This document shows, one piece after another, positions 1 to 12,308 of a stretch of DNA of 64,000 nucleotides. The translations under genes and the position numbers were made by a program. The stretch spans positions 1 through 64,000 of the forward strand of contig NZ_ATVD01000003.1 in NCBI RefSeq assembly GCF_000420545.1. Reading direction: 5' to 3'. The stretch comes from Arenimonas oryziterrae DSM 21050 = YC6267. Lineage in GTDB: Bacteria; Pseudomonadota; Gammaproteobacteria; Xanthomonadales; Xanthomonadaceae. Each line of letters opens with the position of its first letter. Position 1 is the stretch's first letter. A model generated the notes under the pieces. It made no database searches. It had not been told where the DNA came from and worked only from the letters and a program-made list of their open reading frames with translations.

Positions 1-28
1 AACTGCTAGTGCAAAAAATAGGCAAGAC

Positions 29-89
29 TTTGCACTGAGCCAAGCTGAAACCCGCGCCGTTGCTGGGTATGAAAACCGCCCAGTGCAAA
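29..89. repeat. Module A: 9-bp inverted arms around a shared 24-bp core
   Basis: TTTGCACTG at 29-37 is the exact reverse complement of CAGTGCAAA at 81-89. Between them lies a 24-bp core (44-67) found again at 3374-3397 with one mismatch. A third copy of AGTGCAAA is at 8-15. The module is non-coding, just downstream of the Mor-like gene. Function is unknown; see findings. Confidence 0.75.
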
Positions 90-97
90 CTTTTGCC

Positions 98-409
98 CTA
101 ATTTTGGTTTTGGGCGTTTTTCGGTGCGGCTTTGAGTAGGTAGTAGAGCTTCCGCCGACTGATCCCGAACTCGGCGCAGGTCTTCGAAGCATCGCCGTGT
201 CGGTTGTAGTGGCTGACGATCTTGTCGATCAGGTGCTTCCTGTCTGCGGCAGGAATGTACAACCGCTGTCCGCCGTGAACGCTCTGCAAGAAGGCGAACG
301 CGGCCTCTGCGTAGGGCATCGCCAGTTCCTCGCGGAGTCCCGTGTCGCGGCAGATCGCGCCCAGAATCTCCCCGAACAGCTCCTGGGCCTGGTCAGCTTC
401 GCGATTCAC
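98..409 (-). CDS. Mor-type transcription activator family protein
   Basis: A 103-residue protein whose C-terminal half carries the Mor/C-family pattern: an HGGQRLYIP segment, then a helix-turn-helix (KTCAEFGISRRKLYYLLK). Mor proteins activate middle or late phage promoters as dimers. The GTG start at 409 is chosen because it overlaps the terminase stop as GTGA and has GGAG upstream; a TTG five codons earlier is possible. It is the last gene seen in the leftward operon, so it may control head/tail genes left of the window. Family assignment is from motif recognition; the phage role is inferred. Confidence 0.75.
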   Translation of the reverse strand: MNREADQAQELFGEILGAICRDTGLREELAMPYAEAAFAFLQSVHGGQRLYIPAADRKHLIDKIVSHYNRHGDASKTCAEFGISRRKLYYLLKAAPKNAQNQN

Positions 410-2601
410 AGGCGGCCACTCCAACCGGCGCTTCCGAAACCCGGCGCCGAAGTTGATGTTTCACGGGAAGCAGGTGACGCGGTCGACGAAGGCGGCGAAC
501 CTTGTGTTTCACGGGAAGCGTTGGGCGTAGAGAACAGATCCTCTGCCGGTGGGCCGAACTGCGCCTCCAAGGCTTCCCACTGCCACTCGCGCATGGCGTC
601 GACTTTCACCGCGGGGCTCAGCGAGGCCCAGAGCGCATAGACGAGCGTGTCGAGCGGCTCGTTGCGCGCACCCTTCGGCGTGATCCACTGCTCGGCGTCC
701 AGGTCGAAGTACTCGCAGGTCAATCCCTTGAAGTAAGTCGGCGGCAGCATGCCGGCGTCAGGCTTCATCGCGTTAAAGGGTTCTCCGCGACCACCGGGGA
801 AACGGAGCATTCGCTGCTCGATGGGATCCGCGGTACCCGCTTTGTCAGCCTCCGCGCGGGCAGTCACCGCACTGCTGAGCCAGCCGAAAATGATGTGCTT
901 GAGTACGCTCGTGCCGACACCCCACAAGCCCACGCTGCGTGCCACCGTCTTGTCCCGTTCGTTGACTTCCGTTTTCGCCGGGCGGTACACCGCTCGCTCC
1001 GACTTGTGCTCTGAGCGGCCACGCACCAGGTACACCGATTGCTTCCGAAACTCTTCGCCCACCTTGACCATGCGGTGGTGCCCTGAGAAGCCGACTTTCG
1101 ACTTCACGAACTGGGCCACCATTTCCGTCCAGTTGCCCCCGTCTATCGCGAGCGCGCTGATGTGCATGTCGTGGCCGTGCACATTTCGCCAGAGCCCCTG
1201 CAGATGGGCGTCGAGATCCGCATAGCCATCGGGCCGTGACGGATCGCCGTCGACGACGGTGTAGTCCACCACGCGGGCATGCTGGCCACGTCCGATGCCG
1301 ATGAGCTGCACTTCGAAGCGGTCATGTTGGCAGTCGACGCCGCACACCAGGACGAACGATCCCGCAGGCACCGCGCCGCGGTGCACGCCGGGTTCTGCGA
1401 GCGCTTCGATCTCCGACGAGTCTTGGGCCTTGCGCTCGCCCTCGTGGACTTCACCGCACACCAGGTTGTCGTAGGCGGCCTGCTTATCCGGGTTCGCTTC
1501 CGCGTCCGCACGTCGGCCCGCAATTTCGACCCAGCTCATTCCCAGACCTTCCGGCGTGTAGGCGGCCCAGCTGTGATAGCTGCGATGCAACGCCTCGGCG
1601 TCCGGATTCGTCGGAAGCCAGAAGGCGCCGTCCGGTGGCGAGGGATTCTCAACGGCCCCGCACATGCACTCGTCGGCGTAGGTCAGGTGGCCCTGGGCAT
1701 CTCGGTTGCGGATGACGCGTACCGGTACCTCGCCGCACCCTGCGCACGCGGACCGCTCCACGAGCATTGCGGCCTTGTGGTGCTCTTCGATCACGCATCC
1801 ATTCACCGCGCAGGCGAAGGTGCCGTTCGGCTGAAGTTGATCGCGCTGCAATCTCTGGTGCGCCAAGCAACTCGGGCAGCGCACCTGGTAGTACCGCTGG
1901 TCGCCGAGCTGGAATCCGGCATCGATCTTGCTGCGGCCCGCAACGGTCGGCGTGCACGCGCGGTAGATCTTGGCGCGATCGCCGTACGACATGGCGCGGG
2001 CAGCCAGCTGGTCGTCGGCGCCGCCCTGCCCGCCCAGGTCCGCGGGGTATTCGTCGAGTTCGTCCATGAACACGAATCGCGCCGTGCGTTGCCGCAGCTG
2101 GTTCGAGGAGTTCGCCCAGATGACCCAGAGCGTGCCACCGGGAAACCGCTTCTCCAGCGTGTTGTCGGATTCGATCTTTCCTGCGAGCGACGGCATCAGC
2201 TGCACGGCCGGCTCGAACTTGCTGGTCGACCAGCTGCGCGCCAGGTCCTTGACTGGCTGCGCGACGATCATCGAGTCGAGGCCGCGATCGATGACGTAGC
2301 AGGTCCAGTTGATTCCGATCTCGGTCGCACCGATCTGCGCGGACTTCTTGAAGTCCACTTCGCGGACCGGCGAGTGGTCGCTGAGCGCGTCCTGGATCTC
2401 GCGCAGCATCGGATTGCGGCTGGTGCGCCACGGGCCCGGCTCAGCGCCGGCGCCCTTGGCGATCATTCGCGTCTGGTCCGCGTGCTGGCTCACGGTCACG
2501 CGCGGTGGCACCGTCATGCCGCGCACCCACGCCTCGGTCACCGTCCGAGTGGCATCGGCAAGAATGACGTCGTAGTCGATCGAGAAGGAATCCAGCATCA
2601 C
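406..2601 (-). CDS. Phage terminase large subunit (GpA family)
   Basis: The ATP-driven DNA-packaging motor with headful or cos nuclease. The 731-residue protein matches lambda gpA-type TerL in length and order: a Walker A-like KSAQIGATE (about 86-94), Walker B FVFMDELDE (176-184), a Cys-rich zinc-ribbon-like insert (CPSC at 242-245, CAGC at 286-289), and an RNase H-fold nuclease starting near VCGVDCQHD (Asp423). The start is GTG at 2601, overlapping the TerS stop, or the adjacent ATG at 2598. It is translationally coupled to TerS upstream and to the Mor-like gene downstream. All key motifs are intact. Confidence 0.95.
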   Translation of the reverse strand: MMLDSFSIDYDVILADATRTVTEAWVRGMTVPPRVTVSQHADQTRMIAKGAGAEPGPWRTSRNPMLREIQDALSDHSPVREVDFKKSAQIGATEIGINWTCYVIDRGLDSMIVAQPVKDLARSWSTSKFEPAVQLMPSLAGKIESDNTLEKRFPGGTLWVIWANSSNQLRQRTARFVFMDELDEYPADLGGQGGADDQLAARAMSYGDRAKIYRACTPTVAGRSKIDAGFQLGDQRYYQVRCPSCLAHQRLQRDQLQPNGTFACAVNGCVIEEHHKAAMLVERSACAGCGEVPVRVIRNRDAQGHLTYADECMCGAVENPSPPDGAFWLPTNPDAEALHRSYHSWAAYTPEGLGMSWVEIAGRRADAEANPDKQAAYDNLVCGEVHEGERKAQDSSEIEALAEPGVHRGAVPAGSFVLVCGVDCQHDRFEVQLIGIGRGQHARVVDYTVVDGDPSRPDGYADLDAHLQGLWRNVHGHDMHISALAIDGGNWTEMVAQFVKSKVGFSGHHRMVKVGEEFRKQSVYLVRGRSEHKSERAVYRPAKTEVNERDKTVARSVGLWGVGTSVLKHIIFGWLSSAVTARAEADKAGTADPIEQRMLRFPGGRGEPFNAMKPDAGMLPPTYFKGLTCEYFDLDAEQWITPKGARNEPLDTLVYALWASLSPAVKVDAMREWQWEALEAQFGPPAEDLFSTPNASRETQGSPPSSTASPASRETSTSAPGFGSAGWSGRL

Positions 2602-3182
2602 GCGGCGGCCTCGCGGTGCGCCGGCGTCGGCTCCTTCGTGCGGTCGAACATCGCGGTAGCCGACTTCTGCAGGTCCTCGCAGACCTTCGCAACTTCCGCA
2701 TCCAGCAACGCCTCGCAGGCGCGAGGATCTGTTTCCGCGGCGAGCTGGGAGCGGAGGCGGCTGGGGATGGAACGCAACCGTTCCAGCGCCTGACGCGCCA
2801 GCGTGAATACATCGCGGTCGACCTGATCGACTCTCACGAGCTGCTTGGCCGTTTCGCCGAGCTCGAGTTCTGCCATCCGGGCCCTGGCCAGGCGCTCGCG
2901 CCGCATGGCTTCGCGCAGGCTGAAAGGATCGACCTCAGGCGCAGCGCCGGCGGCCGTCGGTGCGGCGGTCTCGGCCGGGGCCTCTGTGGGCGCACTGCGG
3001 TCACCGCCGCGCGTGGGGTCGCTGGTCTCGTCGAGCAGCGCATCGGATGCCGCTACATCGATCAACTTGTCTTCGCGCTCGACCAGGCGCCGGTCGCGAC
3101 GCATCCGACGGACGTAGGAGTCGCTGACCCCGCGGTGCGCGGCGTATTCCGCCGTGGTCATGAAGGGCTTGCCGGAACTCAT
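2598..3182 (-). CDS. Phage terminase small subunit (Nu1-like)
   Basis: A 194-residue protein. Its N-terminus reads as a winged-helix/HTH of the Nu1 kind (TTAEYAAHRGVSDSYVRRMR), followed by an Ala/Pro-rich linker and a charged helical C-terminal half typical of TerS oligomerisation regions. TerS proteins recognise the phage pac or cos site and recruit TerL. The ATG at 3182 with a GGGGTGG-like site upstream is preferred; the longer frame upstream would run into the repeat region and has an un-phage-like composition. Its stop overlaps the TerL start. Function rests mainly on HTH plus position directly before TerL. Confidence 0.8.
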   Translation of the reverse strand: MSSGKPFMTTAEYAAHRGVSDSYVRRMRRDRRLVEREDKLIDVAASDALLDETSDPTRGGDRSAPTEAPAETAAPTAAGAAPEVDPFSLREAMRRERLARARMAELELGETAKQLVRVDQVDRDVFTLARQALERLRSIPSRLRSQLAAETDPRACEALLDAEVAKVCEDLQKSATAMFDRTKEPTPAHREAAA

Positions 3183-3363
3183 GCAGCCACCCCGGGACCA
3201 GAACGGAACCCCGGAACCAAACACGGAACAAGAAACATGCACGCAAATCGCGAGCCATATTGCCCGCGGAACATCCGCCCAGGGAGGACCCGCGAATGTG
3301 CCTCGGTCTCGGTTCCGCTTGAGAGCTGCACGCCCGTCCAACGCCCTTCGAGGGTTGGACGGA

Positions 3364-3416
3364 GGTTGGACGCGCTGAGACCCGCGCCGTTGCTGGGCGC
3401 GTCATACCGTCCAACC
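3364..3416. repeat. Module B: second copy of the 24-bp core with different inverted arms
   Basis: GGTTGGAC (3364-3371) and GTCCAACC (3409-3416) are exact inverted arms around the core at 3374-3397, which matches module A (44-67) at 23 of 24 positions. The arms differ completely from those of module A yet are again self-complementary. Confidence 0.75.
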
Positions 3417-3503
3417 ATGTCCAACCGATTTGTTGTGTATAGAGAAAAGCGGGCTACTGTCTTTTGCTTACGCGGGTACGTGAAACAGGTTGGACGGTAT
3501 GAC
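3401..3503. repeat. Perfect 16-bp inverted repeat enclosing an AT-richer spacer
   Basis: GTCATACCGTCCAACC (3401-3416) is the exact reverse complement of GGTTGGACGGTATGAC (3488-3503). The 71-bp spacer is visibly richer in A/T than its surroundings (for example GATTTGTTGTGTATAGAG). It could be a strand-opening region of an origin or a large cruciform or RNA hairpin; this is inference. Confidence 0.7.
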
Positions 3504-3572
3504 GGCCCCGCGTCCCGCCTGCATTTGAGGTTGGACGGGGTTGGACATTCGGTTGGACGGGGTTGGACGGAC

Positions 3573-4940
3573 CTATCCACGGCCTTCCTCCTGCGGACGG
3601 TAGTAGCACCACACGCGCTCACCGCGCTTCACGGGTCGGTACTTGTCCCAGCCCAGGCGCCGCATGATGGAGCCCACACGCGTCTGTGCCGTGCGGTCGT
3701 GGCGCGCCGTGTCGATCCTCAGGCAGTCGCCCAGCAGCTCAGCCACCGAGCATTCGTCCACGCGCCCATCTTTGTCGCGCTCTTCCATGCTGATGTGCTC
3801 GTAGTGGCTCGCGGCCGCCTTACCCTCCAGCCATCGCACGATCGTTTCGATCCAGACGTCCTCGCTGAAACGCGCGTCCTGCTCGCGCTTCGCGCCTGGG
3901 GGTAGCTGCCACCACTCGAAGCCATGCTTGAACAGGTGAACCGCCTCGGCCCACAGTTGGTCACGCGCAGCCACGACTGCCTGGATGTCGATCATGCCCA
4001 CGGTGACGGGCAGGAAGCGCCGAGCGCCCGTGGCGTCACGCAGGTAGTCATCGCCATTGACCGTGCCGACGAACACGCACTCGCGACGGAATGACCTGGC
4101 GGTGCGCCCGTAGCTGGGGCGGTAGACGTCGAAGCGCGTGGTGATGGCCTGCTTGACCTTCGAGACGTCGGCCTTCGAGAACGAGTCCATCTCGCCAATC
4201 TCGATGGCCCAACGTCCGCGCAACGTCTGGTAGAAGTCCTTGTGTGCCGGCGACTCGGTTGCCTCGGCGTACCACTCGGCCGTGAACAGCTCCAACACCG
4301 ACGTCGTCTTGCCCGCACCCTGCCCGCCCTCGAGCACCACCATGAAGTCGACCTTGGAGCCCTTGCTGGGCTGGGTCGGGTCCTGCCACAGGATGCGGGA
4401 GACTGCCGATACCATCATGCAAGGAGCAGCGCCCAAGGCGTACTCGCTCTCGCTCGCCCCGAAGAGGTCGACGAACATCCGCGACACGCGCGGTGTGCCA
4501 TCCCAGACCAGGCGTTCGAGGTATTCGCGCACCGTGTGTCGCTTCTTGCGGCGGGCAATCGCCTCGACACCCTGCATCACCAGGTCGATACCGACAGCCA
4601 TCGTGTAGCGATCCGGACTGCCCAGCCACGCCGAGAGTTCGAGAGCGTCTACCTCGGTGAATTCGTCGCGCGTACCTCCACTCCATGGCGGCAGGCGATC
4701 CAATGCGATGCGATTGCCGAATTCATCGAGCCAAAACAGATTCTTCAGCGCGGGGTCGTTGTCCAGGATGAGCATCACGTTGTGGCTCACACCCTTCACG
4801 GCGCCGGTGTTCGTGCGGACGAGACCTGCGCGCCAGTCACCCGGCGCGTTGAATCCACCGCCACCGGAGCCGTCGCTGCCGCCAGCATCGTCGCCTTTGC
4901 CACCGGCGATCACTTTCATCTTTTCGCGGGCCACGTTCAT
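3573..4940 (-). CDS. VirE/D5-like superfamily 3 replicative helicase
   Basis: A 455-residue P-loop ATPase of the virulence-associated E family, used by phages and satellites as a replicative helicase. Visible motifs: Walker A EGGQGAGKT (204-212), Walker B WAIEIGEMD (244-252), sensor FVGTVN (290-295) and an arginine-rich RDATGARRFLPV (301-312). The ATG at 4940 is chosen because it forms an ATGA overlap with the preceding 52-residue ORF; a longer upstream frame lies in a shadow of the primase gene. The C-terminal 100 residues look like a winged-helix tail. The gene ends 5 bp from the iteron cluster, which suggests it acts there. Confidence 0.9.
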   Translation of the reverse strand: MNVAREKMKVIAGGKGDDAGGSDGSGGGGFNAPGDWRAGLVRTNTGAVKGVSHNVMLILDNDPALKNLFWLDEFGNRIALDRLPPWSGGTRDEFTEVDALELSAWLGSPDRYTMAVGIDLVMQGVEAIARRKKRHTVREYLERLVWDGTPRVSRMFVDLFGASESEYALGAAPCMMVSAVSRILWQDPTQPSKGSKVDFMVVLEGGQGAGKTTSVLELFTAEWYAEATESPAHKDFYQTLRGRWAIEIGEMDSFSKADVSKVKQAITTRFDVYRPSYGRTARSFRRECVFVGTVNGDDYLRDATGARRFLPVTVGMIDIQAVVAARDQLWAEAVHLFKHGFEWWQLPPGAKREQDARFSEDVWIETIVRWLEGKAAASHYEHISMEERDKDGRVDECSVAELLGDCLRIDTARHDRTAQTRVGSIMRRLGWDKYRPVKRGERVWCYYRPQEEGRG

Positions 4941-5095
4941 TGGTCTCCCGCAGGTTTCTGCCGGCGGTTCGCTTCGCGCCGTGCTTGCGCCAACAAGGAC
5001 TGCGACTGCGGGATTTCTCGCACCAGGCGCTCGATCAACAGCAGGAGGTCCGCATCGGAGAGTCGCTGAACCGAGGCAGGTGGAAGTGGCTTCAT
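4937..5095 (-). CDS. Small 52-residue protein coupled between primase and helicase
   Basis: The protein begins MKPLPPASVQRLSDADLLLL and continues as an amphipathic helix with a basic C-terminus (RREANRRQKP). Both ends are ATGA overlaps, with the primase stop upstream and the helicase start downstream, so translation is coupled and this is very likely a real gene. No known domain is recognised. The position suggests a replication accessory, perhaps a linker between primase and helicase, but nothing in the sequence proves this. Confidence 0.7.
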   Translation of the reverse strand: MKPLPPASVQRLSDADLLLLIERLVREIPQSQSLLAQARREANRRQKPAGDQ

Positions 5096-6153
5096 GCTGC
5101 CCTCCGACTGTCGTCGAGCACGATGTCCAACTCGCACACGCGCGTTGCGGCCCAGGCCGCGAGCTGGCGTGGCGTCCAGCCGTCGACTTGCAGGGCGTCG
5201 GCGATGTCCCAGCCCTTGGGCTGGCCTTCGGGATCCACCAGGCGAATCGAACGCGCCCCAACGCGCCATGCAAGCTGCGCGACACCATCGAACAGGCGAC
5301 CGGTGTAGTCCTCGCGACCCAGCATTGCTTCCATGCCCGGCTTGTCCGCGTCAGGCCAGAGCACCAGGTCGCGGCCTTTCAATGGCTCGAAGTTCACGTG
5401 CCGCATGCCTTTGCTGCCGCCGGGCCAGCTGATAACCGCATACGGTGGCAACGCGTCAGCGCCAGCTAGCGCGCATTTCTCGCCTTCGACGATCAGCACC
5501 GGCTTCTCGGGATACGCAGCAAGCCGATCGAGACCGAACAGTGGCCGCGGCTCGGGAAAAGGCCGCACGCACCATTGGGAGAGCCCGTCGGGCCCAATGC
5601 ACCAGGTGACCTGTGGCGTGATCTTGGCTCCATCGCGCATTTCGATGCGGAGGACGTACCCCAGCAGCTTCCCTTCGGCGTTTCGATACGCATCAGCACG
5701 TGCGGGCGTGCAGGTCCAGTAACGGCCGCGCTTCGGATTGAACATGGTCGCCTTGCCGTCGGCCGCAATCAGCGGCGACGCATCATCCGGCACCACGCGC
5801 ATGGGTATCCAGGTTGCACCTGCCGCAAGTGGACGTCCGTACGAAGTGCGTTTGATCCGGGCTGGCGCAGACTCGCCGCCTGAGAGCTGGGCGCAAGCCT
5901 CGACGAAACTCTTTCCCGTCAACGCCATCACGAAACCGATCGCGTTGTGGTGCGCCCCGCATCCAAAGCAATGCACGAACCCTTTGTCCGGGTTCACCGT
6001 GAAGCTTGGCGAGCGTTCGTCGTGGAAGGGACACAACCCGGTCCACTCCCGACCGGCCCGGCGCAGTTTGACCGTAGCGGCCACGAGCGCCACCAAGTCG
6101 ATCTCAGCAAGCAGGGCGACGCTGTCGATTCGCTTTGCCGCGCCGGACGTCAT
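5092..6153 (-). CDS. Phage DNA primase with CHC2 zinc finger and TOPRIM domain
   Basis: A 353-residue DnaG-type primase that would make RNA primers for phage replication. The N-terminal zinc-binding domain is clear: CPFHDERSPSF followed by VHCFGCGAHHNAI (residues about 41-72). The TOPRIM fold shows the acidic motif VLIVEGEKCA and the DxD-type LVLWPDADKPG. The helicase-interaction tail of cellular DnaG is missing, as in many phage primases where a separate helicase follows. It starts with ATG at 6153 in an ATGA overlap with the ORF upstream and overlaps the 52-residue ORF downstream. Confidence 0.92.
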   Translation of the reverse strand: MTSGAAKRIDSVALLAEIDLVALVAATVKLRRAGREWTGLCPFHDERSPSFTVNPDKGFVHCFGCGAHHNAIGFVMALTGKSFVEACAQLSGGESAPARIKRTSYGRPLAAGATWIPMRVVPDDASPLIAADGKATMFNPKRGRYWTCTPARADAYRNAEGKLLGYVLRIEMRDGAKITPQVTWCIGPDGLSQWCVRPFPEPRPLFGLDRLAAYPEKPVLIVEGEKCALAGADALPPYAVISWPGGSKGMRHVNFEPLKGRDLVLWPDADKPGMEAMLGREDYTGRLFDGVAQLAWRVGARSIRLVDPEGQPKGWDIADALQVDGWTPRQLAAWAATRVCELDIVLDDSRRAA

Positions 6154-6332
6154 GCTGCGCGCTCCAGCGGTAGCGGCTGCTGAGGATCGGTGAGCACGTC
6201 CTCGCGGCCAAGAACGCGAGCAATGCGCTGCCGCTCTTCCTCGGTGGGCGGGTTGAACAATTCCGCTGCCATCTCGCGCTCGCGCTTCAGGACCTCAGCG
6301 CGGTGAACGGGGTCACGGCGTCCTAGACGCAT
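6150..6332 (-). CDS. Small hypothetical phage protein (60 aa)
   Basis: A short, highly charged protein (MRLGRRDPVHRAEVLKRERE...) with one long predicted helix and a Pro-rich C-terminus. No domain is recognised. The ATG at 6332 overlaps the end of the zinc-finger gene upstream, and the stop overlaps the primase start as ATGA, which supports it as a real operon member. Confidence 0.65.
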   Translation of the reverse strand: MRLGRRDPVHRAEVLKREREMAAELFNPPTEEERQRIARVLGREDVLTDPQQPLPLERAA

Positions 6333-9841: not shown

Positions 9842-10105
9842 ATGAATCTCGAATTCAGCAGCCTCAGCGAATTGCAGCGCGACGTCCTGCTCAGCGCGAG
9901 CAATGTGTCCCATCTCAAACGCGCCCGCGGTGGCTACGTCGCCATCGCCGGCGGCAAGGCTTTCACCACGCGCACTGTGTTCGCGCTGCAGCGCTGGGGC
10001 CTGCTCACGCTTCAGCAGGACGGCCAGCGCGCCATGATCACGCGCAGCGGAAACGAGCTGCTCAGGACGGGGCACACCACCGTCCTCGAGGAGCAAGCCG
10101 GATGA
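9842..10105 (+). CDS. Hypothetical phage protein, winged-helix-like (87 aa)
   Basis: The pattern RTVFALQRWGLLTLQQDG followed by ITRSGNELL resembles the recognition helix and wing of a small winged-helix protein, in which the last strand often reads as ITxxG. That is a shape-based guess; no family is recognised. Its stop overlaps the next start as ATGA. Confidence 0.55.
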   Translation: MNLEFSSLSELQRDVLLSASNVSHLKRARGGYVAIAGGKAFTTRTVFALQRWGLLTLQQDGQRAMITRSGNELLRTGHTTVLEEQAG

Positions 10106-10296
10106 CCTACTACGCGATCTGCGAAGGCGCCGACATCAAGATCTGTGGCACCTGCCGGCGTTTCGCCGAGTTCAATCCCGACGCCGCACAAGACCCTTTT
10201 CAGGCGCGCATGGCGCCGCAAGCAGACCTCGAGCGCTGCCCGGCTTGGATGCCGAAACCCGCGACGAATCCTCCCCGCGCCCACACCGGCGACTGA
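10102..10296 (+). CDS. Small Cys-containing hypothetical phage protein (64 aa)
   Basis: Starts in an ATGA overlap with the ORF before it. It contains CGTC (residues 15-18), with further cysteines at about 8 and 46, which could bind one zinc ion. No family is recognised. It lies 26 bp before the ParB-like gene. Confidence 0.6.
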   Translation: MTYYAICEGADIKICGTCRRFAEFNPDAAQDPFQARMAPQADLERCPAWMPKPATNPPRAHTGD

Positions 10297-10322
10297 CGCC
10301 GACTCCTTCGACAGGACCTCCG

Positions 10323-12308
10323 ATGAATCTCACCACCCTCCCGCTTTCCGCGCTGCAACCGTCGCCGCAGAACGTCCGCAAGACCGGCGGCAAATCCATT
10401 CCCGAACTGGCCGCCAACATTCGCGCGGTCGGCCTGATGCATAACCTGGTCGTGCGCACAGGCATCGATGGCAAATACGAAGTCGTCGACGGCTCGCGCC
10501 GCGTGGCTGCGCTCCGCGTCCTCATCGAACAGGACCACCTGCCGGCGAGCTATGAGGCGCCGTGCGCAATCATGGCGGCCAACACCGACGAGCGCGCTAC
10601 CGAAGCTTCGCTGTCCACGTTCATCATGCGCGAAGCACTGCACCCCGCCGACCAGTTCGAGGCATTTCGCGACCTGGTGGAGCGCGGTACGTCGATTGCA
10701 GACGTCGCGGCCCACTTCGGCGTTACGGAGCTGTTCGTGAAGCAGCGCCTGAAGCTGGCCAACGTCAGCCCCCGCCTGTTCGACCTGTATCGCCAGGGCG
10801 GTATGGACCTGGAGCAGCTGCAGGCGCTCGCACTGACGGACGACCACGAGGCACAGGAGAATGTCTGGGACAAGACCACGCACCGGCACGAGCGCGAGCC
10901 CATGGAGCTGCGTCGTCGACTCACGTCGGCCGAAGTGCGTGCCAATTCGGAGCTGGCCGTGTTCGTCGGCCTCGACGCCTATGTCGCCGCCGGCGGCGCG
11001 GTGCGCAAGGATCTATTCTCCACGAACGACGACGCTTATCTGACAGACCCCAAGCTACTGCGCGAGCTCGCCCAACAAAAGCTGGCCCTGGTCGCCGCGG
11101 CCGTCGAGAAGGAGGGCTGGTCGTGGGTGGAAGCGCATCTGACCCTCGATCACAGCCAGCTTTACGAATACCAGGCCCACCCGTCGCGCCCGATCGTGAC
11201 CAAGCCCAGCAAGGAAGTCACCGATCGCAAAAAGGCCATCGCTGCGAGGCTCGAACAGATCCACCAGGAAGTCGGCGACCTCGAGCAAGTCGAGGAATGG
11301 GACGAGGAGGCGATCGACGCGCTGCGGCACGAAGAGGACACGCTCAAGCTCGAAGTCGAGCGGCTCGATCGAGACCTGGAGAAGTGGTCCGACAAAGCGA
11401 AAACCGAGGCCGGCGCTTTGGTGTTCCTCAGCCACTTTGGCCTGCAGGTGCACCGTGGCCGACTGAGGCCTGGGCAGCAGGCGAAGGGCGACAAGGTCAC
11501 CGGCACTCCGAAGGCGGACAAGCCCGCCGCGCCGAAGAAGACCGAACTCGGCGAGCCGATGATCCGTCGCCTGTCGGCGCACCGCACGCTCGCGCTGCAG
11601 GCGCTGGTGTCGACCAACGTCGACGTCGCGCTGCCGCTCCTGATTCACGCGATGGCAAACCGCCTGCTGTTCAACAACAGCGGCGGCTCCGCGTTGCACA
11701 TCAATCCGACCAACAGTTTCGAGTCACACGACCTGCACATCCGCGCCGGCGCGAAAGACCTGGCAGACGGCGTGGCATGGAAAGCGATGAAGGCGGGCGT
11801 CGACGTCTGGCTCAAGAAGGGCCTCCCGAAAAACTCGGACGCGATGCGCGAGTGGATCTTCAAGCAGAGCCGTGACACGCAGTTGCAGCTGCTCGCGTTT
11901 CTCACTGCATTGACGCTGGAAGCTGGGCACGGCAAGAACGGCCGCGTTCCGGCAGCGGACGCGATCGCCGGCATCTTGAAGCTGGACATGGCCAAGTACT
12001 GGCAGCCGACGCCGGATACGTTCCTCGCCCAGGTGCCGAAGGCTTTGGTTATCGAGGCCATCAAGGAAACCTGCGGCAAGGCCGATGCAGACAAGCTGTC
12101 CGATGCAAAACGCGACGAGGTCATCGCCAGCGCAGGCAAGTTACTCCAGGGCAAGGGCTGGCTGCCGAAGGTACTCCGCGGCCCGAACTACGGCGCGAAG
12201 CCTCAGCTTGCGGCGCCCGCACCCAAGTCGGCGAAAGCACCGGCGGCGAAGAAGGCGCCCGCGAAGAAGGCCAAAACCGCGGTCAAGAAGAAGCCAGCGA
12301 AGAAGTGA
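10323..12308 (+). CDS. ParB-like protein with lysine-rich H1-like tail
   Basis: A 661-residue protein. The N-terminal ParB/sulfiredoxin-like domain (about 5-95) has the arginine box as GSRRVAAL (57-64), a variant of GERR. A helix-turn-helix follows (SIADVAAHFGVTELFVKQ, about 124-141). The middle has a charged coiled coil, and the last 30 residues are an Ala/Lys/Pro repeat like histone H1 or AlgP tails. ParB proteins bind centromere-like sites and hydrolyse CTP, but no ParA is seen here. Phage members of this type may instead act in transcription or DNA protection. The ATG at 10323 has a GGAC-type site upstream. Confidence 0.85.
   Translation: MNLTTLPLSALQPSPQNVRKTGGKSIPELAANIRAVGLMHNLVVRTGIDGKYEVVDGSRRVAALRVLIEQDHLPASYEAPCAIMAANTDERATEASLSTFIMREALHPADQFEAFRDLVERGTSIADVAAHFGVTELFVKQRLKLANVSPRLFDLYRQGGMDLEQLQALALTDDHEAQENVWDKTTHRHEREPMELRRRLTSAEVRANSELAVFVGLDAYVAAGGAVRKDLFSTNDDAYLTDPKLLRELAQQKLALVAAAVEKEGWSWVEAHLTLDHSQLYEYQAHPSRPIVTKPSKEVTDRKKAIAARLEQIHQEVGDLEQVEEWDEEAIDALRHEEDTLKLEVERLDRDLEKWSDKAKTEAGALVFLSHFGLQVHRGRLRPGQQAKGDKVTGTPKADKPAAPKKTELGEPMIRRLSAHRTLALQALVSTNVDVALPLLIHAMANRLLFNNSGGSALHINPTNSFESHDLHIRAGAKDLADGVAWKAMKAGVDVWLKKGLPKNSDAMREWIFKQSRDTQLQLLAFLTALTLEAGHGKNGRVPAADAIAGILKLDMAKYWQPTPDTFLAQVPKALVIEAIKETCGKADADKLSDAKRDEVIASAGKLLQGKGWLPKVLRGPNYGAKPQLAAPAPKSAKAPAAKKAPAKKAKTAVKKKPAKK

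Follow-up and report, generated by a model that had tools for sequence, protein, structure and literature searches.

Replication origins built from short repeated words (iterons) and stretches of skewed base composition have been described for several mobile elements, and they offer the closest comparisons for a prophage locus of Arenimonas oryziterrae DSM 21050 in which a 24-bp core occurs twice, in two modules (A and B) with different self-complementary arms. In phage-inducible chromosomal islands (PICIs), primase and initiator genes are followed by an origin in which two element-specific iteron sets are arranged around an AT-rich region (PMC6092414). The IncQ-3 plasmid origins comprise iterons with a 20-bp consensus, an A+T-rich region, and a G+C-rich region (PMC7557826); similarly, the oriV of the PromA plasmid pMOL98 is described as having 19-bp iterons and a 27-bp AT-rich region adjoining a 29-bp GC-rich region (PMC9499019, citing Gstalder et al.). 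The DNA analyzed here, referred to as the window, takes up the leftmost 64 kb of contig C3 (NZ_ATVD01000003.1, positions 1 to 64,000) from a genome of 3.09 Mb in 25 contigs; module A is placed 44 bp from the end of this contig, with the DNA further left out of view.

Module B (about 3336-3568) is most likely the replication origin of the prophage, and we infer that it fires. Ten copies of the iteron GTTGGAC are found within 233 bp, 3' of the helicase and primase genes, in two sets flanking an AT-rich stretch. The first set (3336..3425), which flanks core B, consists of copies at 3336-3342 (-), 3354-3360 (+), 3365-3371 (+), 3409-3415 (-), and 3419-3425 (-); the second (3489..3568) runs entirely on the + strand (3489-3495, 3530-3536, 3540-3546, 3552-3558, and 3562-3568). 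The AT-rich stretch between them (3426..3480), the proposed unwinding region, has a GC content of 47% as against 57-75% in neighboring segments. Moreover, all 13 of the 30-mers with at most 11 G+C in positions 1-6229 start at 1-92 or 3417-3420, beside the two modules; those starting at 3417-3420 mark the left edge of the AT-rich stretch, and the other 9 belong to module A.

Module B thus resembles the PICI origins of Gram-negative type in its iteron sets around AT-rich DNA and in its place directly 3' of primase/initiator genes (PMC6092414). The carrier is nevertheless different: a PICI is recognized by having no large terminase and head genes of its own, whereas this prophage has its own large terminase in the window, together with a portal on contig C8 (the presumed continuation) and a gpW-like frame. 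No shared core is mentioned in the account of these origins consulted here (PMC6092414). Among the loci collected by our searches (cited by L numbers), a related phage, L003, matches the window in gene order and in the core and its place, with iterons of GGTTGGGC type. In L032, which was retrieved only through the similarity of its helicase, inverted iterons at the corresponding place enclose a core-like sequence (5 mismatches). It is probable, on balance, that module B is an origin whose iterons are read by the VapE-like helicase or a partner, that the core is a strand-specific element common to origins with unrelated initiators, and that module A is a second core in a late-gene control region.

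In the mechanism proposed, the phage initiator, most likely the adjoining VapE-like helicase or its partner, would bind the GTTGGAC iterons and open the AT-rich stretch between the two iteron sets. The ~20-bp core between inverted iterons (general form AAACCCGCRNNNNTGCTGGGTTT), which would not be specific to this initiator, would most likely come into play once the strands are open, as a strand-specific element that helps to place the helicase or the priming machinery; its form would probably be a small hairpin next to the unwound DNA. The second copy, that of module A, would lie within the control region that separates the Mor-like gene from the late genes.

The core itself, GCTGARACCCGCGCCGTTGCTGGG, is found at 44-67 (core A) and 3374-3397 (core B), both on the + strand and with one difference between the copies. 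Core A starts 30 bases past the stop of the Mor-like gene, and its hairpin-type 23-mer (48-70) has 1 mismatch to AAACCCGCRNNNNTGCTGGGTTT; core B is bordered by the genes of the terminase small subunit and the helicase. Both are outside recognized genes, as a first-pass annotation made from the letters alone had stated, and a sequence search of the 64-kb window and the 3.09-Mb genome, allowing up to 3 mismatches, found no third copy. A chance origin of the pair in the window is ruled out by 100 dinucleotide shuffles of the window, which contained 0 copies of the core. The same annotation had seen two unlike sets of self-complementary arms, and these read as described: TTTGCACTG (29-37) and CAGTGCAAA (81-89) form a 9-bp arm around core A in module A (29..89), and GGTTGGAC (3364-3371) and GTCCAACC (3409-3416) stand around core B. 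Its further observation that each arm word is repeated near its own module also holds. All 3 window copies of AGTGCAAA fall inside 8-89 (shuffle mean 0.87; 6 of 100 shuffles reach 3), and 10 of the 14 copies of GTTGGAC fall inside 3336-3568 (shuffles of the full 64 kb average 6.25 copies, with 14 reached in 1 of 100). The view that such modules are not typical of origins has to be given up, as module B has the plan of an iteron origin. The suggestion of a swapped specificity word survives in part: the words of module B are iterons, and the core stands as an independent unit that recurs with varying words beside it, but the arm sets of A and B differ in kind.

Outside this phage, the exact 18-mer ACCCGCGCCGTTGCTGGG was found at 23 viral loci and 56 genome loci, and the copies give a general form, AAACCCGC-R-NNNN-TGC-T-GGGTTT. 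In its gapped form (18 fixed bases), the core was matched at at least 80 viral loci and in only 2 of 398 genomes of the phylum, and is therefore rare in chromosomes; a reversed-pattern control gave 0. The 166 core instances were grouped by shared flanking words into 77 clusters, and possibly coding hits were kept in the counts of iterons, arms, AT-richness, and T-runs, diluting the signal. An 8-mer occurs at least 4 times in 250 bp in 18 of the 67 clusters with full flanks, compared with 16 of 640 random places in the same loci, and the words around the core vary by cluster (CAATTCTC, CTGTGCCA, GGGTAACC, AGTTGGCA, ACGCTAGT, ATTCGCAG, AGTCCTTA, AAAGTGGG, and others). Local AT-richness was likewise seen, with 34 of 65 core places in the lowest fifth of their own locus. 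Exact inverted arms of at least 8 bp surround the core in 11 of 75 independent loci, as against 2.8% in mismatched pairings of a left flank from one cluster with a right flank from another; the paired arms expected by the first-pass annotation are a real tendency, enriched but in a minority of loci, and not a property of the core.

Some arrangements of the core deserve separate description. A Pseudomonas aeruginosa plasmid (L036, 4002 and 4526) has an inverted duplication around parA with two head-to-head cores, and a Thauera locus (L047) has GGGTAACC iterons enclosing two exact cores 200 bp apart (788-805 and 988-1005). Thauera and Zoogloea contigs (L042, L056, L061, L069, L070, and L072) share a repeated core-bearing sequence with similar flanks, mostly near contig ends, which suggests a multicopy element. 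Outside Proteobacteria, a full hairpin stands beside CTGTCCCA-like words in a Paenibacillus contig (L078, 2799-2821). In E. coli, the consensus with a GCCGTT loop matches 14 of 5426 genomes at E<=10 and the consensus with an ATGGAT loop gave no match, both by blastn with word 11, a search poorly suited to a gapped hairpin. Rfam returned three matches up to E=5 for window positions 1-4000, all below the gathering score, and no match for ten core loci; we found no open-access paper that names the core or describes such a shared core.

The genes beside the core were surveyed in two scans. The viral scan covered 49 loci with the three largest nearby reading frames each (137 proteins) and, among the 25 of 97 families listed, recorded VapE (3), DUF5906 (4), and AAA_25 (3). 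The genome scan covered 22 loci with up to five frames each (102 proteins) and, among the 25 of 86 families listed, recorded AAA_25 (3), RepC (2), DUF5906 (2), D5_N (2), RPA (1), DnaB (1), and lambda P (1). The core lies 3' of VapE-like helicases in the window, L003, L004, L010, and L032, of D5/DUF5906 helicases in L021, L092, and L095, of AAA_25 proteins in L102 and L162, of IncQ RepC in L055 and L094, of an RPA initiator in L087, and of a DnaB helicase in L081. These 14 loci were picked because a replication gene was recognized in them, and they show breadth, not rate; the gap from gene to core is ~20 to 310 bp (measured from the end of the tblastn match in L004 and L032). Annotated records with the core further include elements with replication initiator protein A (L029, L037), RepB plasmids (L038, L181), and very small Rep plasmids (L033, L034), only L033 being exact and the others having 1 to 3 mismatches (one in L034). 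The core recurs, in short, with unrelated iterons beside replication genes of unrelated families; no one protein family is always encoded nearby, and what the loci with a recognized replication gene have in common is a replication gene as such.

The same distribution bears on a packaging role. Lambda-type phages keep cos upstream of the terminase small subunit gene, and module B lies directly upstream of such a gene, so that it could be read as a cos-type site for the adjoining terminase, with the repeats as sites for the small subunit. This is very improbable, and a cos site was rejected because the same core adjoins the replication initiators of plasmids and integrative elements, where no terminase is annotated in the stretch shown, and stands 3' of IncQ repC.

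In one IncQ1 plasmid (L189), the best core match, with 3 mismatches, falls between the AT-rich stretch and the iterons; a second (L190) also has a 3-mismatch copy, and a third (L191) has no core within 5 mismatches. From this position, the core may correspond to the G+C-rich region of IncQ origins. An IncQ oriV of RSF1010 type is alike in combining iterons with A+T-rich and G+C-rich regions, and the IncQ-type L055 and L094 bear the core beside repC; it differs in its longer iterons (20-bp consensus) and in the RepA, RepB, and RepC proteins (PMC7557826). No match to RepC (PF06504) was obtained among the nine window proteins scanned, namely those beside the modules and up to 12308. The pMOL98 oriV is alike in its described layout (PMC9499019). 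As to hairpins, the pairing within the core is broken, by eye, in the copies of L189 and L190. Geminivirus-type origins, with virus-specific iterons beside a conserved hairpin, are alike in those two parts and differ in that their hairpin is a rolling-circle nicking site; no relation is claimed.

Whether the core works as a hairpin was approached through its own variation and through origins chosen by protein similarity. At position 9, for which the gapped search had set no base, 31 of 32 independent clusters have a purine (24 A and 7 G, with T in the remaining one); because G.T pairs exist only on this strand, the purine favors a strand-specific hairpin, and the form of the core suggests the same. 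For the homology-chosen set, an alignment of five helicases was used as the query and the best 80 of at least 593 stretches were kept (an earlier search with a single helicase protein had yielded one relative); four of the five query helicases come from core-bearing loci, and the set is not fully independent of the core. Iterons are common among these relatives, and many loci have one or two segments between inverted iterons whose enclosed sequence drifts; by eye, pairing is kept through changed bases in some variants (e.g., L249, L253, L251, L262, and L270) and not in others. Two further arrangements were seen downstream of the helicase. Four loci (L217, L232, L223, and L271) have two iteron-enclosed modules ~150 bp apart past a VapE-like helicase, the second with a different G+C-rich palindrome, and L194 (5589, -) and L195 (2192, -) have a possible longer-loop core (ACCCGCATTTCCCGTTGCTGGGT) ~360 bp past the helicase match, besides one between iterons.

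A hairpin would also be expected if the core were a single-strand initiation (ssi) site, which when unwound would fold into a structure on which primer synthesis is begun by a primase, either that of the phage or host DnaG; module B would still be the origin and only the role of the core would differ. This possibility, though doubtful, draws on the purine at position 9, which allows this strand, but not always its complement, to form an A-T or G.T pair, on the variable tetraloop, on DNA folds in which 3 of 5 typed copies give a stem with one bulged T and a fourth is a shorter form, and on the occurrence of the core in very small plasmids that carry a Rep gene (L033; one mismatch in L034). It fits poorly with IncQ replicons, which bring their own primase and, to our knowledge, separate ssi sites, and with their broken pairing; in addition, the orientation of the core relative to the replication gene varies by locus and the fold scores are weak. 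A terminator or insulator hairpin at gene 3' ends, an unlikely alternative, would explain the place of the core after helicase genes, the Mor-like gene, and tnpB: both module A and the 14 loci have the core downstream of a gene, and L154 and L156 are extended palindromes of terminator type. The terminator reading is disfavored because T is not in excess past the stem: its fraction in the next 8 bases is 0.23, equal to the background of 0.23 (68 loci), or 0.28 against 0.24 in 36 full hairpins, with TTTT in 14 of 68. Nor would a terminator be expected to be conserved in sequence across unrelated replicons or enriched near iterons.

Several results weigh against the account proposed above for module B and its core. 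Within the homology-chosen set, a core with at most 5 mismatches stands just downstream of the helicase in 11 of 80 relatives (18 of 400 control stretches), one of the 11 (L201) being the contig of L003, and the remaining VapE relatives have diverged or other cores. Hairpin energies for 31 hand-taken segments gave a mean z of -0.99, with 24 below zero and 2 with p<0.05; leaving out the mistyped L239 and four segments found by the core, the 26 that remain, many of them related, again gave a mean z of -0.99, with 19 below zero and 2 with p<0.05, and a looser automatic extraction (164 segments), which was too permissive, gave -0.59. With only 2 segments at p below 0.05 and a mean z of -0.99, the hairpin is plausible and not established, and the selection for structure proposed by the first-pass annotation is weakly supported by these folds outside the pattern-selected set. 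The family scans, moreover, gave few replication proteins, and many loci gave none; many core hits have neither arms nor a recognized replication gene. Among the exact 18-mer hits, 26 of 57 (in 56 genome stretches) lie in an open frame of at least 300 codons, so that some exact genome hits are probably coding and due to chance; four mutually similar Pseudomonas hits (L052, L067, L076, and L088) look, by eye, like conserved coding DNA. Other copies have no evident origin around them: those of the IS66-type elements (L039, L183), of phi1/PAJU2-like Pseudomonas phages, and of module A. An account based purely on origins leaves the copy in module A unexplained, and this is its greatest weakness.

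The copies in module A and the IS66-type elements would suit a small hairpin that moves or recombines and inserts itself between the genes of mobile elements, whether or not an origin is there. In the IS66-type elements, the hairpin is full (L039, 4001-4031) or near-full (L183, 3001-3027) and lies between tnpB and the transposase gene tnpC; the core is also found, with mismatches, near a Tn3-family transposase (L182), and is repeated in the Thauera and Zoogloea contigs, often near their ends. Such a mobile hairpin is nonetheless highly unlikely in view of the core's position 3' of replication genes in the 14 recognized loci, its enrichment near iterons, and its rarity in chromosomes.

Module A itself appears to combine two kinds of part. 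A dyad at 8..36 (+), composed of GTGCAAA (9-15) and TTTGCAC (29-35) around a 13-bp middle, AAATAGGCAAGAC (16-28), is the proposed operator of the Mor-like late activator. One or two dyads are found in the interval past the Mor-like gene in 9 of 14 loci with a Mor-like match, partly judged by eye (L198, L199, L201, L202, L204, L205, L206, L208, and L210); their arms vary by group and their middles are mostly 8 to 17 bp. The AGTGCAAA words of the window, around AAATAGGCAAGAC, conform to this arrangement. A TTGCCTA-like middle is common to only L198, L201/L003, and the window, with L003/L201 having nearly the same middle as AAATAGGCAAGAC between other arms, and no core was seen in the Mor-gene interval of the nine dyad-bearing loci. 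Because relatives bear locus-specific dyads in the same interval without the core, the arms of module A are probably operator half-sites of the Mor-like activator, the core there being an addition. Phage Mu offers a parallel: the operators of its Mor/C activators are dyad sites near a Mor-family gene. In the window, L003/L201, and L198, the Mor-interval dyads, probably operators of the activator, again combine a constant middle with variable arms, independently of the core. In L032, which has no such dyads, 12 bases of the core (CGCGCCGTTGCT) occur at 10030-10041 (-), ~250 bp past the Mor-like match and with other flanks, as a product of chance or a remnant of a second core.

The genes around the two modules run leftward on the - strand in the order CHC2 primase, VapE-like helicase, terminase small and large subunits, and Mor-like activator. 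The CHC2 zinc-ribbon primase (5092..6153; PF01807, E=5.3e-28) is followed by the VapE-like, superfamily 3 (SF3)-type replication helicase (3573..5288; PF05272, E=2.1e-65; phrog_1313 DNA helicase, E=4e-98), whose stop at 3573 is ~175 bases from core B. The terminase small subunit occupies an open frame at 2598..3341, with a likely ATG start near 3180 (phrog_57, E=4.2e-30), and the large subunit, of lambda gpA type, lies at 406..2601 (PF05876, E=7.5e-56; PF20454, E=5.7e-47). The Mor-like late transcription activator (98..424) matches phrog_836 (late transcriptional activator, E=2.4e-5) and Pfam PF08765 at E=1.1e-4, below the curated cut-off. A search of the genome gave one match to the lambda-type portal family, on contig C8, and a 71-residue frame at the right end of C8 is presumably gpW from its likeness; C8 and C3, which are separate contigs, would be neighbors in the same prophage. 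At 10245-12308, on the strand opposite to the replication genes, a protein with a ParB-N domain (phrog_7783) is encoded.

An iteron origin is a known type, and what would be new is a core common to origins with different iterons. More widely, and only tentatively, one ~20-bp origin element may exist as a strand-specific hairpin, read by a factor common to many bacteria and used by unrelated replicons (SF3-helicase phages, AAA_25 phages, RPA and IncQ replicons, and small Rep plasmids) with their iterons freely exchanged, the G+C-rich block of IncQ origins being a worn version. IncQ replication is considered to need few host proteins (it is not known to need DnaA, DnaB, or DnaG), and the reader of the core would accordingly be as general as SSB, gyrase, polymerase, or the structure of the DNA itself. 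Iteron origins are treated as private to each replicon, and a core found with unrelated initiators would give them a new part in common. If this is true, the core by itself would be enough to locate origins in the sequences of phages, plasmids, and integrative elements, and would offer a direct way to approach what the G+C-rich block does in IncQ origins; if a host factor reads the core, this would help to explain the broad host range of such replicons.

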